The position numbers and the translations under genes are program-made. A model generated the notes under the pieces. The model was not told the origin of the DNA. It did no database searches and saw nothing but the letters and a program-made list of their open reading frames with translations. Source: Gamsiella multidivaricata (lineage: Eukaryota > Mortierellomycota > Mortierellomycetes > Mortierellales > Mortierellaceae). Taken from it: DNA of 64,000 nucleotides. This document shows positions 6,465-14,196 of the stretch, piece after piece (the first letter of the stretch is position 1; every line of letters begins with the position of its first letter). The DNA is taken from NCBI RefSeq assembly GCF_025024155.1, contig NW_026251759.1, positions 1-64,000 on the forward strand, written 5' to 3'.

Positions 6465-7058
6465 ATGTCTGGAAATGTTGGCTGGGATGACGAGATTGTG
6501 CTTCGCAAGCGTTCGGACCATGCGAAGGTGACCCGCACCGCTTCCGACATCAATGCAGCCCGTCGTGCTGGTGCAGTCGTATCAACAGAACGTAAGGTTG
6601 TGACCAATGCAGGACATGTTGGCGAGGACTTTAGGAGGATTGCCAAGCTGGCAGAGACGGACGAGATTGTCGCACCCAAGGCGGTCTCGATGGACGTCGG
6701 AAAGGCCATTGCCAAGGCCAGGATCGAAAAGAAGATGAACCAGAAGGAATTGGGCGTCAAGGTCAACGAGAAGCAGACAGTCGTAAGTTATTCATTCATT
6801 CATTCTTTTGTTTCTTTTGGTGTTGGATAGAGAGGCGATCTTTTTTTTTTTTTTTTTTTTTTTTTTTGGTCTTCTTGTGCTAACAATAATGTCCTGATTT
6901 TGGAATCAATTAAATAACAGATCAACGACTATGAGGCTGGCCGTGCTGTACCGAACCAACAGATTCTCGGAAAGTTGGAGCGCGCTCTTGGAGTGAAGCT
7001 GCGCGGCAAGGACATTGGATCGCCATTGACCTTTGGCAAGAACAAGGACACTGCCTAA
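6465..7058 (+). CDS. MBF1: Multiprotein-bridging factor 1
   Basis: MBF1 is a small conserved coactivator that links DNA-bound regulators such as Gcn4 to TBP; it also helps prevent ribosomal frameshifting on stalled ribosomes. Two exons, 6465-6782 and 6921-7058, encode 151 residues, the usual length. The N-terminal MBF1 domain starts [15 protein letters not shown] and is followed by the RRAGA(V) segment. The C-terminal Cro/C1-type helix-turn-helix runs from [20 protein letters not shown] through [20 protein letters not shown] to [10 protein letters not shown]. The single intron holds a 27-base poly(T) tract just before a normal acceptor, aataacag. Confidence 0.96.
6841..6867. repeat. Poly(T) tract in MBF1 intron
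   Basis: Twenty-seven consecutive T lie inside the MBF1 intron. Similar runs occur in the ARPC5 intron and in intergenic DNA of this window. Confidence 0.9.
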
Positions 7059-7724
7059 AATCATCGACTGCGCACAAGGACGAATAGGCGCGGGAGATCT
7101 CGAAAATCGATGGCAAAATCTAATCCAATCCAAGCACCAAGCAAACACAAAAAAAACCAAAAAAACATGCTGCGCCTGCACCGACATATCTTATCTTGTA
7201 AAACTATGGACTCTGTACATCAATAATTGCGAACACAGCATCTTTTGGGCAAAAAAAAAAAAAAAGGGACTGCGGCAACCTTTGCAGACTAGGCTTTGTC
7301 TTTGCACAGACGCAACCTTTTCCTTTGCTTTTGCCATTGCTAGGAGTCCAGCATATGTTGTATATAGAATTGACCATTAAAGCAACATCTGGATACTCTT
7401 TCGCAAAATAAATACAAAGAAAAAAGAAAAAGGAAAAGGGAAAGGAAAAAAGGGTGTTGATTGGTGTTCAATGATGCGATTGGTTCATGCTGGAATGTTA
7501 AAAGGTCCTCTTTTTTTCAAGGAAAAGTAAATATGCCTTGAGAACAAAAGGGGGTCAGGGATTTTGTCCCAGATCAGATTGTCTCCCAGCAGTGAGTGCA
7601 CAGTGGAAATCCGCACATCTGCGCACCTATTATGTCACCGAAGTGACTTCTAAGCGTCGCATACGACATGGGAAATCATCAGGGGGAGTGTGGGGGCGGC
7701 ACACAAAAAAAACTAGTCTGACTA
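7059..7724. other. Convergent 3' region, MBF1 / Fanzor locus
   Basis: Non-coding DNA between two convergent genes. It holds the MBF1 3' UTR with several A-rich stretches and aataaa-like signals near 7407. The minus-strand part next to the Fanzor stop codon is where a guide (omega) RNA scaffold could lie, because TnpB and Fanzor loci commonly carry it at the 3' end. No secondary-structure signal was established by eye. Confidence 0.45.
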
Positions 7725-9647
7725 CTATTCCTCGCGGGGTCGGCGCGTCCTCTGGAGAATCGCCATGATCTGTTCCTCCTCCTCCAAAGCCTTTCTCTTG
7801 GATGCCTTTTGGGTGCTGTCTTGGACGCTATCGAGAGTGCAGTTGTCGATGCTACTACTGCTACTGCTGGTTCCCTCAAAAGCTTGATGGTCCTTTTCCT
7901 CAGCGCCCCCGGTGGTCTCCGTCTTCATCCACGGATAATTTCCCTCCTCGTCTACCGGCTGCAGGTACAAAGGCCGCTGTTGGTGGAGCAGATGTCCTTG
8001 GACGGCATTCACCATGTTGTGGGCCGCCATCTCATCCCTGTGGAATGGAGTTCCGCAGTCCTCGCAGAAGAGCCTTCGGATAGACACCTGGGAAACAAAT
8101 GTGTGGCAACGGGGGCATTTCTTGGGGCTGTAATATTCATTAACACCAAGAACGATGTAACTAAGCGACCTGCCCTAAAGAGCGATGACGGTGAAATGTG
8201 TGAAAGTCAATAAATGAACTATCTGTCGTAGGGACAAGAAATCGCCAGAGGAGTGAAACACTTACCAGGGGCACAAAGAATGCCAGAAAGGAGTCGTGGA
8301 GTGATGTGAGGCGCGAGCAACTGCTGAATTGACCAAGTCCAATGCCAATCACCACCATGTTCTTTTCCTCTCTTTTGGCGCCTATCGATCCCCCCACCGA
8401 CCTCAGCAAACTGTTTGCGATTACCAGGTACTCCTCCTCCCGTGCACGTTGGGCATCCCATTCGTGGCTCTGGTAGAGCCTGTTCGAGCCATTGTAAAAA
8501 CTGCTCAAGCGCTGCTCGACCATCTCGAGCTGCTGAACGTACTGCCCAACGCTTGCATCTGGCCCGCGGAGCGGTGGGAGGTCTGACTCAATCTCTTGGA
8601 TCGATTGAGTTGCACCTTCCGGTACCACCCGTTTTTGCTCCTCTGTCCATCTTCGGAACTTGAATGTGGGTTGGTACACGGCCTTCTGGTTAACAGATAT
8701 GTTGTAGTATGTCTCTGGATAGGGCGGATCAATCAAAGAGGCAGCAGAGTTCGTCCCAGAGGCGGCTGTGGAGATCAAAGAGGCAGGAGTGACCCTGTGG
8801 GTAGTAGGGGTTGGGAAAGCAGAGGTCGTCACGACATGCCCTTTTCCTTTTTTGTCGTTGATCGGACGGTCTGTATCTGGTAGGAAGGCGCTTCCAGCTA
8901 CAACATAGGCTTGACCAATATCCAGACACAAAATCTTGATCTTTTCTGGAGGGCAATGCGGCCAGAGTCGAGTGACATCGTCCTTGGCCTTTATGACATT
9001 CCAGATCTCCTGCAAGTAATAGTCGGTACCTCCAACCGTTGACGTCAGGCGAGGGGGCAAAATGGCATCTGCCAGCCTTCGATATCGAACTGCTTGCAAC
9101 TCCCTTAACTTGTAGGCAGACAGCTGAAGCCTGAAGCCATTGGTGTGGAAAGATCCTGTCAGAACATATCCCTTGAGGCTGTAATTTCGAGGGTCAAAGT
9201 TGGAATCACGGATGGCAGACAAATGGTTCCTCGCATCCAAAAGGGACATGTTGGTGATTGCGCTTCGGTATCCCAGCTTCCCTCGTTGCCGAACAGTGAG
9301 ACCAGTAGGAGTGACGTCTGCAATAAGGCTCTTGATTAGGAACCCTGGCTCTTGATCTGGTAACTATATGGTTATCACGTCTTCTCCGAGGAGCAGCTCG
9401 GAAATGTGACCCTTGCCAACTCCAGAATCCGAGTTTTAAGGAGCGGTCGTTTCCAGCATAAAGTGACGAGCTCTCGCTCCGAGAACGAGACAAAACCATC
9501 CTTTGCCGAAGATAGTGGGGCAATCTTCCGCCTGTTGCCGCTCATCATGTTGAATGTCAGAAAGTTCTCCACGGCTGTCAACTCGTTATGGATCTCCAAG
9601 TCGTATCCAACTACTTCCGGTCTGCCTTTTTTTTGCCAACCCTTGAG
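7725..9647 (-). other. Fanzor / TnpB-like RuvC nuclease segment
   Basis: This is the C-terminal half of the composite locus. It contains SGNRRKIAPLSS and FVSFSERELV, then QEPGFLIKSLIADVTPTGLT and RLQLSAYKLRELQAVRYRRL. RuvC-I is ILCLDIGQAYVVAGSA, with the catalytic Asp near 8920. RuvC-II is MVVIGIGLGQFSS. The last exon (8174-7725) has the zinc-ribbon/RuvC-III block: VNEYYSPKKCPRCHTF, then FCEDCGTPFHRDEMAAHNM. The two CxxC pairs and HRD motif are diagnostic of TnpB/Fanzor. The tail is Ser-rich and then Lys/Glu-rich. A TAG at 9364-9366 and a TGA at 9375-9377 break the frame between the first part and RuvC-I. Confidence 0.82.
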
Positions 9648-10779
9648 CTGTTGTTGATAAAGCGACCATCTTGTATTAGAAAAATTCCTAATGTCATGCT
9701 ACAAAATTCATTCAAGAAATACACTTGTTACCTGCTCTTGTAGTTCAATCGCTCCATTGCGATAAATACGTTTGAGCTCAGCGCCCAGCTGAGTAGACAC
9801 ACTCCGTACTAGCTCCGAAGGTGAGAAAGGTGTGCTCTGGCGTATAGCACTTGTTAGCCTTGGGGGAGTGTACAAGTTCAGCTCCTGTAATCGCCCAATG
9901 AAGCCAGTAACAAGTTTGCCAACGCCTCGATTCGTGGGAGGATTGCCCGAATAAAGATGTCGTAGAAAGGCATAAAGGAACTGACTACTGGAACTGTCAG
10001 GCTCGTCATCGATGTCGTCGTCAGTGTGATTCTCACTACTGTCCTGGCCGTCATCTGCATCCTTGAGTTCTACCCTTGGGCATAATCCATCGAGATAGTC
10101 TTGGTCCTTTGGTTGCATATAACCAGCCGCCATGCTTTCCATGTACAGAGCAATGAGTCTCTGAGCACGTCGTTTGGTCTTGTTGGCCTCTCCAACGGCC
10201 TCCCGCAAGCAGTCAATCATTTCGTCAGCGACGTCCGCCCTGGTTTTCAATGCCGCCCTGATGTTTGTTTGTATAGTGCCGATACGAAGAGTCGCCTTTG
10301 GGTGCTCCCATTTCAGCCCATTCCAGAGCTGTCGCTTGTCCATGGATTCAATAGGTGTTGGTGGCTTCGATGGCTTCTTGACTGGCTTCTTAGCTGGCTT
10401 CTTAGCTGGCTTCTTAGCTGGCTTCGTTGGGGTCAACTTGTTCTCAACTTTCTCCAAAGGACTCTCAGGCAGCTCGGTCCATGGCTTCCATTTGTAGCGC
10501 TTCATTGCCTGTGGAGGTTCGTGCGTTACTGTTTTCGTCCTGGTTTTAAAGGAGTAGCGAGGGCGAGGAGGAGGTGTGGTACTCGAATCCTTGCTGTCCT
10601 TCGGAGGCGGGCGGTCGATGGTGCGGTACCTGTTGAACTTTTGAGAGGATCGATGTCGAGGTGGAGAACCGGGGGACAACGCACTAATTACTAAAATGGA
10701 GAAAGAAGAAAGGAATTAATAAAACACTGCAAATGCAATTGTCATCACAGACAAACTGAAATGTGTTGGTGAGGCATAC

Positions 10780-11930
10780 CTCTTTGTTGCCTGTCTGGAA
10801 GCTAACTGCGCCTGTTTCCGCTCGGTAAACTTACTGCGAGCGTACTGGTACCTTTCCTTGATGCCCTCCAATCTCGCCTCAAGTGCGGTAGTATCTGGTT
10901 TGTCATGTTGGCCATGCGCGATCGGGGTTTGGTGAAGATGGACGAAAACATTGATGCTCGTGTCGAAAGTAATGCCGCGTTTGTTCTTGATAACAACACG
11001 TTCATCAGCAAGGTATTCTTTCACTAGTGCCGGTACGTCTTTGGCTAAGAGATAAAAGATGAATGTATTAGAACAAGACATTTTTTTCAATGTGAAAAGC
11101 CCAATGCATAGTACGCACCCTGATCGTCTGATCCTTTGGCTTTCATATCCTTAACGATCTTATAGTTGGTCTCGCATCCCAGGCCGTACAGACTGCGATT
11201 GTAATCATTGGTCGACACAACACCCAAGACCGTAAGCTGCTCTGCCGTCTCGAGTCCCAGCGCAGACAACATGTCTTTTTTCCGATACTCCAAGAAACCG
11301 CCACCACATACTGGTCGCCAAACAATAGGGATGCTGTGGTAAATGAGAAGGTCCGAATCCCCGCTGATGACAATGTCTCCTTCCATGGTATCTGTGGCGA
11401 TTTTGACATCCGCCGCTGTATCACACTGCACGACCCTCCATCCGTGGTTCTCGAGAAAGCGGACAAGTCCGTTCCGAGCCTCCACATCCCAGCGAAAGGC
11501 GTTTGTGAGTTGCTTATCGACATTGGTAAAATGGCGCTTCCTGATATGTGCGCCTTCGGATACGCGATCCATGAAAGTCGTGACATGATCTCGGCGGCGT
11601 CGATGACCGTTTTTCGAGCATTCTGGCGCTTTTCATGGGTTGCAAGTTTTCCCTCGCATTGAGCGCCATCGAAGTATAGAATGACTGTCGTTGGATCCAT
11701 GATGCGTTTTTCGAGATTCTTCATGACCAGAGCATGGGCAGCCTCAAGGTCACTGCAATGAGTATAGGCGTATCGAATCGTACAATAAAAGCTTCCTTGC
11801 ATGTCGACGCGGAATTTGTTGTGTGGTTCACCAAGAGCTTGGCGTTGATTTCGCGGTTTTCGTAAAGCTGGGTCGTATCGCTTTTTTTTTTTTTGGCCGT
11901 CAGGAAGCGCCAAAAGGAAAGGCACCCCAT
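10780..11930 (-). other. PIN (XPG/FEN1-like) nuclease segment
   Basis: This is the N-terminal half of the composite locus. Acidic metal-binding positions typical of XPG/FEN1-type PIN folds are visible in order: RVDMQGSF, VILYFDGAQCEGK, TAADVKIA and DIVISGDSDLLIY. After them comes a helix-hairpin-like stretch, VVSTNDYNRSLYGLGCETNY. These nucleases cut branched or flap DNA using two metal ions. The segment needs two frame changes to be read continuously, near the homopolymer at 11882-11894 and near 11595. The later exon (11044-10780) continues with AKDVPALVKEYLADERVV. Confidence 0.7.
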
Positions 11931-14196
11931 GACGCGGACTGGATACCAATGGTGAAATGGAGAGTCGAGGCAACGTTGATTAGATATGAGATTTATACCA
12001 AACAAGGGCTGTACAAGGAAGGAGTGGAATGAGAAAAACGACAAGTGAAGAAATCCGATAGGTGGACTCGACCAATTGCAACCAAGGATGATAAGTGGCA
12101 ACGAAGTGAGATGCAGAGGATGCGGAGCAATAAAAAAGAATATTTGCTCCAATAAGGATGGCGCGTACCTGTGAAGGCAATGGTTCAAAGGACAAACAGC
12201 CAATATTGGTTATGGTAATGGGCAGAAGGAGCGGATAAGGGAAAGTGAGCGCGGAGGAGGAAACAAAAACGACACGCGTCCTTCTGGCTGGAGCGGGGCG
12301 AGAACTCAAGACGCGATTAAGCAGCATTTGCGATTACAAGAAGGCATACTTCCTCCAGCATCACCCTTCCCGATATGGTAATAGGTCCTCAGATTCGCAC
12401 CACCCGTGCACAGTGGTCTGACGCCACCGAAAAAAAAATGGCAAGCTATTTCAACAGCACAGGCTAGGCTACGCATGCCGCGGATAATGCTCTGAAAAAA
12501 AAGGTAATTTGTCATGGGCGACGAGAATAAATGTTCTATAATATATAGGAGGGGGGCAAAAGGGCATCATGACCCATGATGCTCGCAAAACGTGAGTGTG
12601 TTGTGGAGCACGGCATGCTCGCACGCGCCTGTCAATGAGTCTGGCATGCCTGTCCTTAGCCGAGCCGCGGTGTCTGTTAAATTAAAAAAAAAAAAAAGCT
12701 TCGGGGTTGTTGAGGGTACTCAATTTGCTACTTTGGAAGGACACGATGGACACGCACGCTATACAATGATAAGCAAATATCAGGTAGAACCGATTCTTCA
12801 TGATGATTAGCAACAATCTTATGCTGTGCACGCGCTTTTTTTCTATACATCAAATAAACCGTGATTATTTCTTTTCTATGCCTTCAATAGTGCTCTGCTT
12901 GTATTTTTGTGCTCAATTGCGATGGAGCCCCTTCCTCCCCACCCTTCTCTCCTTCCCAGAGGATGAAGTTGAGCATCTCTCTGTGGGAGCCGTAATGGTA
13001 TCCTCGCTAACTGTGTGAGTAAGCAAAAGTATATATTTATGCCGTTGTTATTGTAAATGTATGAATGCTTTTTTTTTTTTTGCATGTGGTATGTCTGGGC
13101 TAATTATTGCATGTATTGTGGAGGGAGCCAAGCGTTGTGTGGGTGGCATGTGGGAATCATGCACACACCATCAAAGGAGGGGGAAATGAGAGACGAACAC
13201 AACAAGCGCTTTGCGCAAAGACGCGTGTATTTATTTATTGGCGGGAGGAGTGAAAAACGAGACTGGACCGTCATCATAAAGAGACCTAATTGATAACAAA
13301 AGCCTTGCCTTTAATGCCGTGCATGAAGGACTACATTGTGGATGTGTCTGTGTGTATAATAGACTACCATTGAATGGATGCATGTGTGTTATAAGAATGG
13401 GTGAATGGGTGTTGGAACAAACAAACGGATTTCATAAACATTATTTTTCATTTCCATATGGGTGCTCATGGGAGAGTTGGTTGGAGGGAGGACACGAGCC
13501 CGGAAGGGAGGGAGAAAATAGGACAATAATAAGGCCTAGCATGGATGCTAGAACAAAGGATCTCGATTTGCGTACCCATGTTCGTCTCCGTAGCAATGAG
13601 GAGAAGAGGGTTTTTTGGCTACTCGAGTGAAAGAAGCCGGGCTAGGCAGCTTGTTCGTGCCCAGGTAGCCCTTGACGACCGGCCATGGGCGACGACGGAT
13701 CCGAGAAGATAAGGTTTTGTACACATGTACCGATCCAAACTCCTCTCCACAGGTGAATAGATTGGGCGAACGGGGCGTAAAAATATAAATAAAACGAAGG
13801 CCATGGCACGTAGCTCTCGGGGAGCCAAAGAGGTCGGGAGAAAGAGCTGCCCGCTCTGGCGTGTCAAACAAGGTGTCAAGAAGAAAGGAAGAAAAGAAAA
13901 AAAGGAGGGAACCAGGAGTGCAGACGCAGGTCAGCTGCAGCCAGCAAGCAAGCAGTCAGGCAAACGGCCGGGCGTAGTAGACTAGACCAAACCAGCACTG
14001 TCCAATAATGTGTCTGCTGGCGGTGGTGCTGCCTACCAGGCACGTGTAGACCCGGATGAGCTGCAGGTTGTTGCACATGTGTCTGTCTTTTTTCTCTTTT
14101 TCCTTTTTTTCTTTTTTCTTTTTTCTTTCAGGCACAACCTTTTTTATTGTTTTACACTCAGACTGAGTGGCCAGGTCTATGGCGGGCGGGTGGTGA

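Follow-up and report, generated by a model that had tools for sequence, protein, structure and literature searches.

Fanzor1 proteins cut DNA with an RNA taken from the right end of their element (PMC10432273; here and below, cited papers were available to us as excerpts, and statements drawn from them hold for those excerpts), and Bao and Jurka described MuDr-type elements of Mucorales that contain Fanzor1 and have 9-bp duplications (PMC3627910). The Fanzor1 studied here lies in a stretch of 64,000 nt, called the window, from Gamsiella multidivaricata (assembly GCF_025024155.1, contig NW_026251759.1, positions 1-64,000). On its minus strand, at 11930-7725, the broken remains of a mobile element of this soil fungus hold the pieces of a gene for a PIN nuclease of the FEN1/XPG type followed by a Fanzor. 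No natural RNA-guided nuclease of the TnpB/Fanzor/Cas12 line is known to us to carry a further DNA nuclease in its own chain. By comparison with its homologues, the gene appears to belong to a family of Mutator-like elements (MULEs) of Mortierellaceae fungi, in which an N-terminal 5' nuclease of the FEN1/EXO1/XPG type, a basic linker and Fanzor1 would form a single chain. We hold this identity, a FEN-type domain and Fanzor1 on one chain in a MULE, to be very probable.

TnpB-like cutting of an empty site preserves the transposon. For the family described here we propose, with a probability of roughly 0.45 for the full mechanism, that the MULE transposase would excise the element, and that the Fanzor, with an omega RNA from the right end and flanking DNA as its guide, would find the empty site beside (T/G)ACGTCANNN and cut it. 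The tethered FEN/EXO1-like domain would then act on the Fanzor cut by trimming its 5' ends or flaps, and repair would be steered to the sister chromatid still holding the element, from which the element would be copied back.

PIN and Fanzor halves in one gene model

Protein searches yielded 55 homologues with the Fanzor half and 21 with the PIN half, together 63, all of them named Mortierella or related genera (the family was looked up for three of the genera). The 63 proteins were scanned with profiles of the segments PIN, MID, FZa and FZb, which were built from 21 of the same proteins, so that those 21 match by construction. PIN and Fanzor parts were found in one annotated gene model in 42 homologues from several genera (PIN+MID+FZa+FZb in 37, PIN+MID+FZa in four and PIN+FZa+FZb in one), the rest being MID+FZa+FZb (16), PIN+MID (four) and MID+FZa (one). 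The Podila verticillata protein CPC16_009322 is an example with an uninterrupted annotated model. A third search, made with the alignment, gave 30 matches, including eight new ones that lie outside the segment scan. By name, no Fanzor match outside Mortierellaceae appeared in the protein searches, two of which scored only candidates sharing most words.

The same pairing was seen in the Gamsiella genome, where matches merged into 85 places for the Fanzor half and 89 for the PIN half. A PIN match on the same strand lay upstream within 6 kb, mostly 1.7-2.1 kb away, at 40 of the 85 Fanzor places, and 45 Fanzor and 49 PIN places were initially unpaired. Twenty of the merged Fanzor loci were fetched, and PIN segments were colinear upstream in 14 of these. 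The six loci with no PIN part of their own comprise L032 and L035, which run into a contig end, and L022, L036, L037 and L038, which look like internal deletions. We rejected the lone halves as a sign of separate genes, since the one "lone PIN" locus that was opened, C139 (L042), has a Fanzor part downstream; at least some of the lone counts thus reflect limited sensitivity. A chance join or an assembly artefact was ruled out by the same order in divergent copies and in other genera, and an "open frame of 1808 aa" at C32 was discarded as masked sequence.

It is very improbable that the halves are in fact two proteins, encoded by adjacent genes of the element that gene finders merged. Such an error would agree with a join that is read from gene models and mostly crosses short introns, and with the 16 homologues that begin after the PIN part, but two thirds of the models (42 of 63), from several genera, are joined. 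Furthermore, the linker stretches FNRYRTV and RYSFK are common to most members of the alignment, and a single open reading frame (ORF) runs from the linker into the start of the Fanzor half in both the window and L029. A single transcript would probably carry both halves. The sequence-only reading of the window had proposed a Fanzor joined to an XPG/FEN1-like PIN nuclease, to be given up if the halves were always separate in homologues; the counts uphold the join, and a Fanzor (Fanzor1 by fold) with an XPG/FEN1-superfamily nuclease on one chain is supported, in gene models and predicted folds, as a recurrent architecture.

Other branches of the pairing exist in the genome, as shown by L042 (C139:143500-148000), which holds a more divergent PIN gene with its downstream Fanzor part. 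At G000:C128:68795-73997, outside the window, another divergent PIN match and a Fanzor match lie 4.3 kb apart on the same strand. The copies L025, L027, L028, L030, L039 and L040 are mosaic, with PIN parts near-alike and C-terminal RuvC/zinc-finger parts far apart. Synonymous divergence (dS) is 0.05 for the PIN part of L025-L027 and 0.10 for that of L039-L040, against 1.2 and 1.0 for the C-terminal parts, as if the C-terminal half of the Fanzor had been swapped between elements.

Predicted folds and retained active sites

Structure prediction of a homologue, which the sequence-only reading had suggested as a check, placed both folds on one chain, and this single predicted chain matches EXO1/FEN1 as well as SpuFz, GtFz and PpFz. 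The complete PIN exon reached a predicted local distance difference test score (pLDDT) of 86.3, with EXO1 as the first match (Foldseek, 6.6e-9). The other half has the Fanzor1 fold (REC, WED, RuvC and TNB) as in SpuFz, GtFz and PpFz, and 478-493 residues were aligned from REC to TNB for SpuFz and PpFz. The PIN family profile matched RAD2 (8.6e-10) and FEN1 (3.2e-9); single proteins mostly stay under the Pfam XPG_I cut-offs, which one of the seven scanned passes. Among the roles put forward in the sequence-only reading (processing of the guide RNA, the cut DNA ends or excision intermediates), the closeness of the nuclease fold to EXO1/FEN1 favours DNA ends or flaps as the presumed substrate.

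In the alignments, both active sites are retained across several genera. Taking as denominators the proteins that cover each site, the seven acidic PIN sites are kept in 25/25, 34/35, 39/41, 41/41, 36/41, 40/41 and 39/44, the RuvC triad in 51/54, 35/41 and 39/42, and the zinc-finger cysteines in 37-39 of 41-42. The IDG aspartate is followed at +7 by a lysine and at +14 by an arginine that reach 90% conservation or more in a 21-member alignment; both line up with the same residues in FEN1 1a76, and in human FEN1 they are K93 and R100. In addition, 12 pairs of in-genome copies gave a ratio of nonsynonymous to synonymous change (dN/dS) of 0.27-0.62 for the PIN part. These copies share ancestry and the pairs are not independent; the ratios suggest purifying selection on the PIN half during the active life of the elements.

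The MULE carrier and its sister copies

The window element is a transposase-less MULE copy (Table 1). An exact target duplication of 9 bp or more was found at the window element, C13, C137, C93 and C131, with GTACGAGTG in C13 and GCTCAGCTT in C137 as the equivalents of the window's CACTGTGCA. The sister copy C137 is longer than the window element and has, left of the Fanzor and on the opposite strand, transposase pieces of the MULE type with a SWIM zinc finger; its joined transposase exons scored 24.6 bits for MULE, below the Pfam cut-off of 27.6 (E 3.4e-5), and 21.8 bits for SWIM, above the cut-off of 19.6. Divergent transposase pieces lie left of the Fanzor in 11 of the 21 loci tested, among which L022 and L029 supplied the queries and L025, L027 and L028 rest on weak SWIM matches. 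The terminal inverted repeats are imperfect in family 1 (17-nt core, 94%), and none were found when they were looked for in family 2. Since C13 appears to share the junction of the window element, the shortened form has apparently moved. This kind of carrier is known from the Fanzor1-bearing MuDr-type elements of PMC3627910. Retrotransposition, considered for the fixed right end and ragged left ends, was rejected for families 1 and 2, whose copies proved to have left ends, 9-bp duplications and pieces of a transposase; the introns kept between copies also disfavour it.

The same elements hold the FEN1-like domain together with a MULE-type transposase, and the domain might serve MULE transposition itself, for example at flaps or gaps of a new insertion, and merely be carried on the Fanzor chain. 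We consider this improbable. Other MULEs are not known to need such a domain, and the PIN-less L036, L037 and L038 adjoin transposase and have intact right ends. We prefer the trimming of ends at the Fanzor cut because PIN-less copies have moved, as shown by the clean 9-bp duplication of L036, although L036 may have lost its PIN part only after insertion.

In C137 (L022, 3827-3869), the junction of the internal deletion that removed the PIN part holds an A-rich, telomere-like filler with units of the CCCTAAAAA type. Near-identical family-2 copies reach contig ends inside the element, as right halves in C12, C33, C62, C111, C121 and C140 and as left halves in C41, C113, C131 and C16, a pattern to be expected if the family was active recently and its copies break the assembly.

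A fixed motif at the left junction

The motif (T/G)ACGTCANNN adjoins the copies at their left end only. The junction, in an order that had not been looked for beforehand, reads CGTCA, exactly 3 nt and then the 9-bp duplication. Over all left junctions placed, CGTCA lies within ~25 nt of the element start in 21 of 25, and the spacing is exact in 14; in these, CGTCA is present in 14/14, an A precedes it in 13/14 and a G or T precedes that A in 13/14. By family, CGTCA is found in 4/4 junctions of family 1 (C33 shortened), in 12/13 of family 2 (C159 shortened; C93:636874 missing it) and in 5/8 of family 3 (missing in C126:166647 and C111:57103, and lying too far out in C122:217545), the last having ragged ends and looser motif spacing. 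Left ends outside this count include C95, C10, C115, C19, C101, C112 and copies cut at contig ends. The motif was first seen in the window, C13 and C137; C93, which was placed by its duplication, has it as well, and C131 came first from a motif-based scan and is also in the left-end similarity list. The other copies were chosen by similarity to the elements' own left ends, not by the motif. The background rate of CGTCA is ~0.001 per position, and a scan for any 5-mer followed by 3 nt and a repeated 9-mer gave three loci for CGTCA versus a mean of 0.19 over the 1024 5-mers (AAAAA, four). In the five copies with both ends, no reverse motif was seen by eye after the right end.

TnpB and Fanzor elements have their transposon-adjacent motif (TAM) at the end opposite the guide (PMC10711439). 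Because the motif found here is likewise one-sided and opposite the presumed guide end, we predict (T/G)ACGTCANNN to be the TAM of the Fanzor; its three free bases before the target would be new in comparison with the PpFz1 TAM, ATN, in which the last base is free. A serious competitor of this prediction, at somewhat less than even odds, is that the motif is preferred by the transposase, or by a host factor bound at CRE/ATF-like sites: related transposases occur in motif-bearing families, and TGACGTCA is the CRE/ATF site. Speaking against the transposase, the motif keeps to one side, opposite the presumed guide, and to one spacing, as a TAM must, whereas a symmetric transposase would be expected to yield both orientations.

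The guide RNA of the proposed Fanzor would come from the opposite end, where the last 119 nt of the element fold (Table 1). Known Fanzor1 omega RNAs measure 75-150 nt (PMC11423790), and family 2 ends in a different hairpin; the fold is suggestive only of an omega RNA. This candidate directly follows the stop codon, inside the gene's own 3' end, so the FEN1-like domain could instead mature the guide: by trimming the transcript on its 5' side, it would let the Fanzor of the same chain draw its omega RNA from the 3' end of the mRNA. FEN1-type enzymes do act on RNA flaps too. We find guide maturation unlikely, and favour end trimming over it, because the closest folds are DNA 5' nucleases, EXO1 first; moreover, no such domain is present in the aligned structures of SpuFz1, GtFz1 and PpFz1.

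The gene in the window

The PIN, linker and Fanzor motifs named in the sequence-only reading are all present on the minus strand at 11930-7725. Its four introns all have GT...AG ends, at places that match by eye those of the relatives L029 and L031, but they do not join the exons in phase. Spliced from the ATG at 11930, the reading of 3861 nt contains 33 stop codons including the terminal one, the first at codon 70. The window gene is dead, and not the intact gene once supposed, because of these stops, because the PIN motifs are split over two frames (RVDMQG and YFDGAQ in one, SGDSDLL and STNDYN in the other) and because the Fanzor part is interrupted near 9.37 kb, between two ORFs. The copies C13 (98% identical) and C95 (97% identical) are likewise broken. 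Six of the seven PIN acids are kept in the window copy, the lost one being seen in DTAADV versus DTEADV in C13, and the RuvC aspartate, the glutamate before the zinc finger, the C4 finger and the RD motif are all retained. The last exon alone reaches a Pfam cut-off (Cas12f1-like_TNB, 36.6 bits, E 4.9e-9).

Within ~0.6 kb of the right end of the element, at ~6500-7040 on the plus strand, lies a gene that we presume from its sequence to be MBF1-like.

Table 1. Parts of the MULE-type element in the window and of its flanks (motif positions are given in the reading direction of the gene).
Feature	Position	Strand	Remarks
Target motif CGTCA + 3 nt (GAC), predicted TAM	12416..12423	-	same spacing in 14 junctions
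Target duplication CACTGTGCA, left side	12407..12415	-	identical to 7605-7597
Whole MULE-type element, 4801 bp, transposase-less copy	7606..12406	-	inter-copy similarity drops off sharply at 7606 (right end); 9-bp duplications abut both ends
Left end, imperfect inverted repeat of right end	12368..12406	-	in C137, 17-nt core 94% against right end
Exon 1, most of FEN1/XPG-type PIN domain, frame broken	11119..11930	-	family profile matches RAD2/FEN1
PIN motif RVDMQG	11811-11794	-	
PIN motif YFDGAQ	11676-11659	-	
PIN motif SGDSDLL	11365-11345	-	
Intron 1	11045..11118	-	GTGCGT...TCTTAG
Exon 2, end of PIN part	10780..11044	-	
Intron 2	10684..10779	-	GTATGC...AATTAG
Exon 3, linker and first part of Fanzor half, single ORF	9732..10683	-	KPAKKPAKKP
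Linker KPAKKPAKKP	10424-10395	-	
Intron 3	9648..9731	-	GTAACA...CAACAG
Exon 4, Fanzor part with RuvC aspartate, frame broken near 9.37 kb	8266..9647	-	LDIGQA
Fanzor motif LDIGQA	8925-8908	-	
Intron 4	8175..8265	-	GTAAGT...CTTTAG
Exon 5, RuvC glutamate, C4 zinc finger and last aspartate	7725..8174	-	Pfam Cas12f1-like_TNB
Fanzor motif CPRC	within 8144-8106	-	
Fanzor motif CEDC	within 8069-8055	-	
Fanzor motif HRDEMAAHNM	8042-8013	-	
Candidate omega RNA scaffold at right end	7606..7724	-	-34.3 kcal/mol, z -2.58; weaker in sister copies
Target duplication CACTGTGCA, right side	7597..7605	-	identical to 12415-12407

Discussion

Several observations weigh against the proposed cycle of excision, Fanzor cutting and end trimming. 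Every copy read from the family of the window element is broken, and 17 of the 63 homologues have no PIN part, though several are marked partial. The PIN domain may be dispensable for movement, since the PIN-less L036, L037 and L038 adjoin transposase. Substitutions in the sister copies weaken the upper stem of the right-end hairpin. Finally, other Fanzor1s reportedly have the target duplication inside the RNA scaffold (PMC10711439). On that layout the guide would begin only 9 nt further on, leaving 12 nt between motif and target, more than an ordinary TAM allows. The boldest version of our proposal, a one-protein, RNA-guided cut-and-resect machine in which Fanzor1's own FEN/EXO1-type domain trims its break, the element settles beside the TAM (T/G)ACGTCANNN and the pair forces re-copying, is less likely than not.

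In the Fanzor literature consulted, which was available in part, a fused nuclease domain was not found. A literature search on Fanzor with PIN, XPG or FEN1, or with Mortierellaceae, likewise gave no description of a fusion, one paper mentioning FEN1 and Fanzor apart; most subscription papers lie outside this search. As far as these sources go, a Fanzor and a FEN1-type nuclease on one protein have not been described, and the target motif at the left end appears to be new. The MULE carrier with its target duplication, the divergent transposase of the sister copies and the fixed target motif go beyond what had been read from the window. If active, the protein would couple a programmable cut to end processing in nature. 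Such a coupling would be relevant to the persistence of Fanzor transposons and to genome editing, in which the outcome of repair is decided by 5' resection. The target motif offers a concrete TAM candidate to test.

Compared with known systems, the family shares with Fanzor1 (SpuFz, GtFz and PpFz; PDB 9cez, 9cer and 9cf1) the fold from REC to TNB, the RuvC D-E-D whose glutamate directly precedes the zinc finger, and residence in DNA transposons, and differs by ~400 extra N-terminal residues with a FEN1/EXO1-type nuclease. From the 5' nucleases FEN1, EXO1 and XPG/Rad2 it differs in that the domain is fused to an RNA-guided-type nuclease, is borne by a transposon and has ~15% identity. The MuDr elements of Mucorales that contain Fanzor1 (ROr-4, PBl-3 and MCi-4) likewise have 9-bp duplications and a Fanzor1 in a MULE-type element; they encode no MuDR transposase, and the excerpts of their description mention no fused nuclease (PMC3627910), whereas sister copies here have a divergent transposase. 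In the Fanzor mariners of giant viruses a second nuclease also travels along (GIY-YIG in PGv-1, EcoRII-type in Mariner-1_OLpv), but as a separate protein of another fold (PMC3627910), whereas in the family described here it would be part of the same chain.

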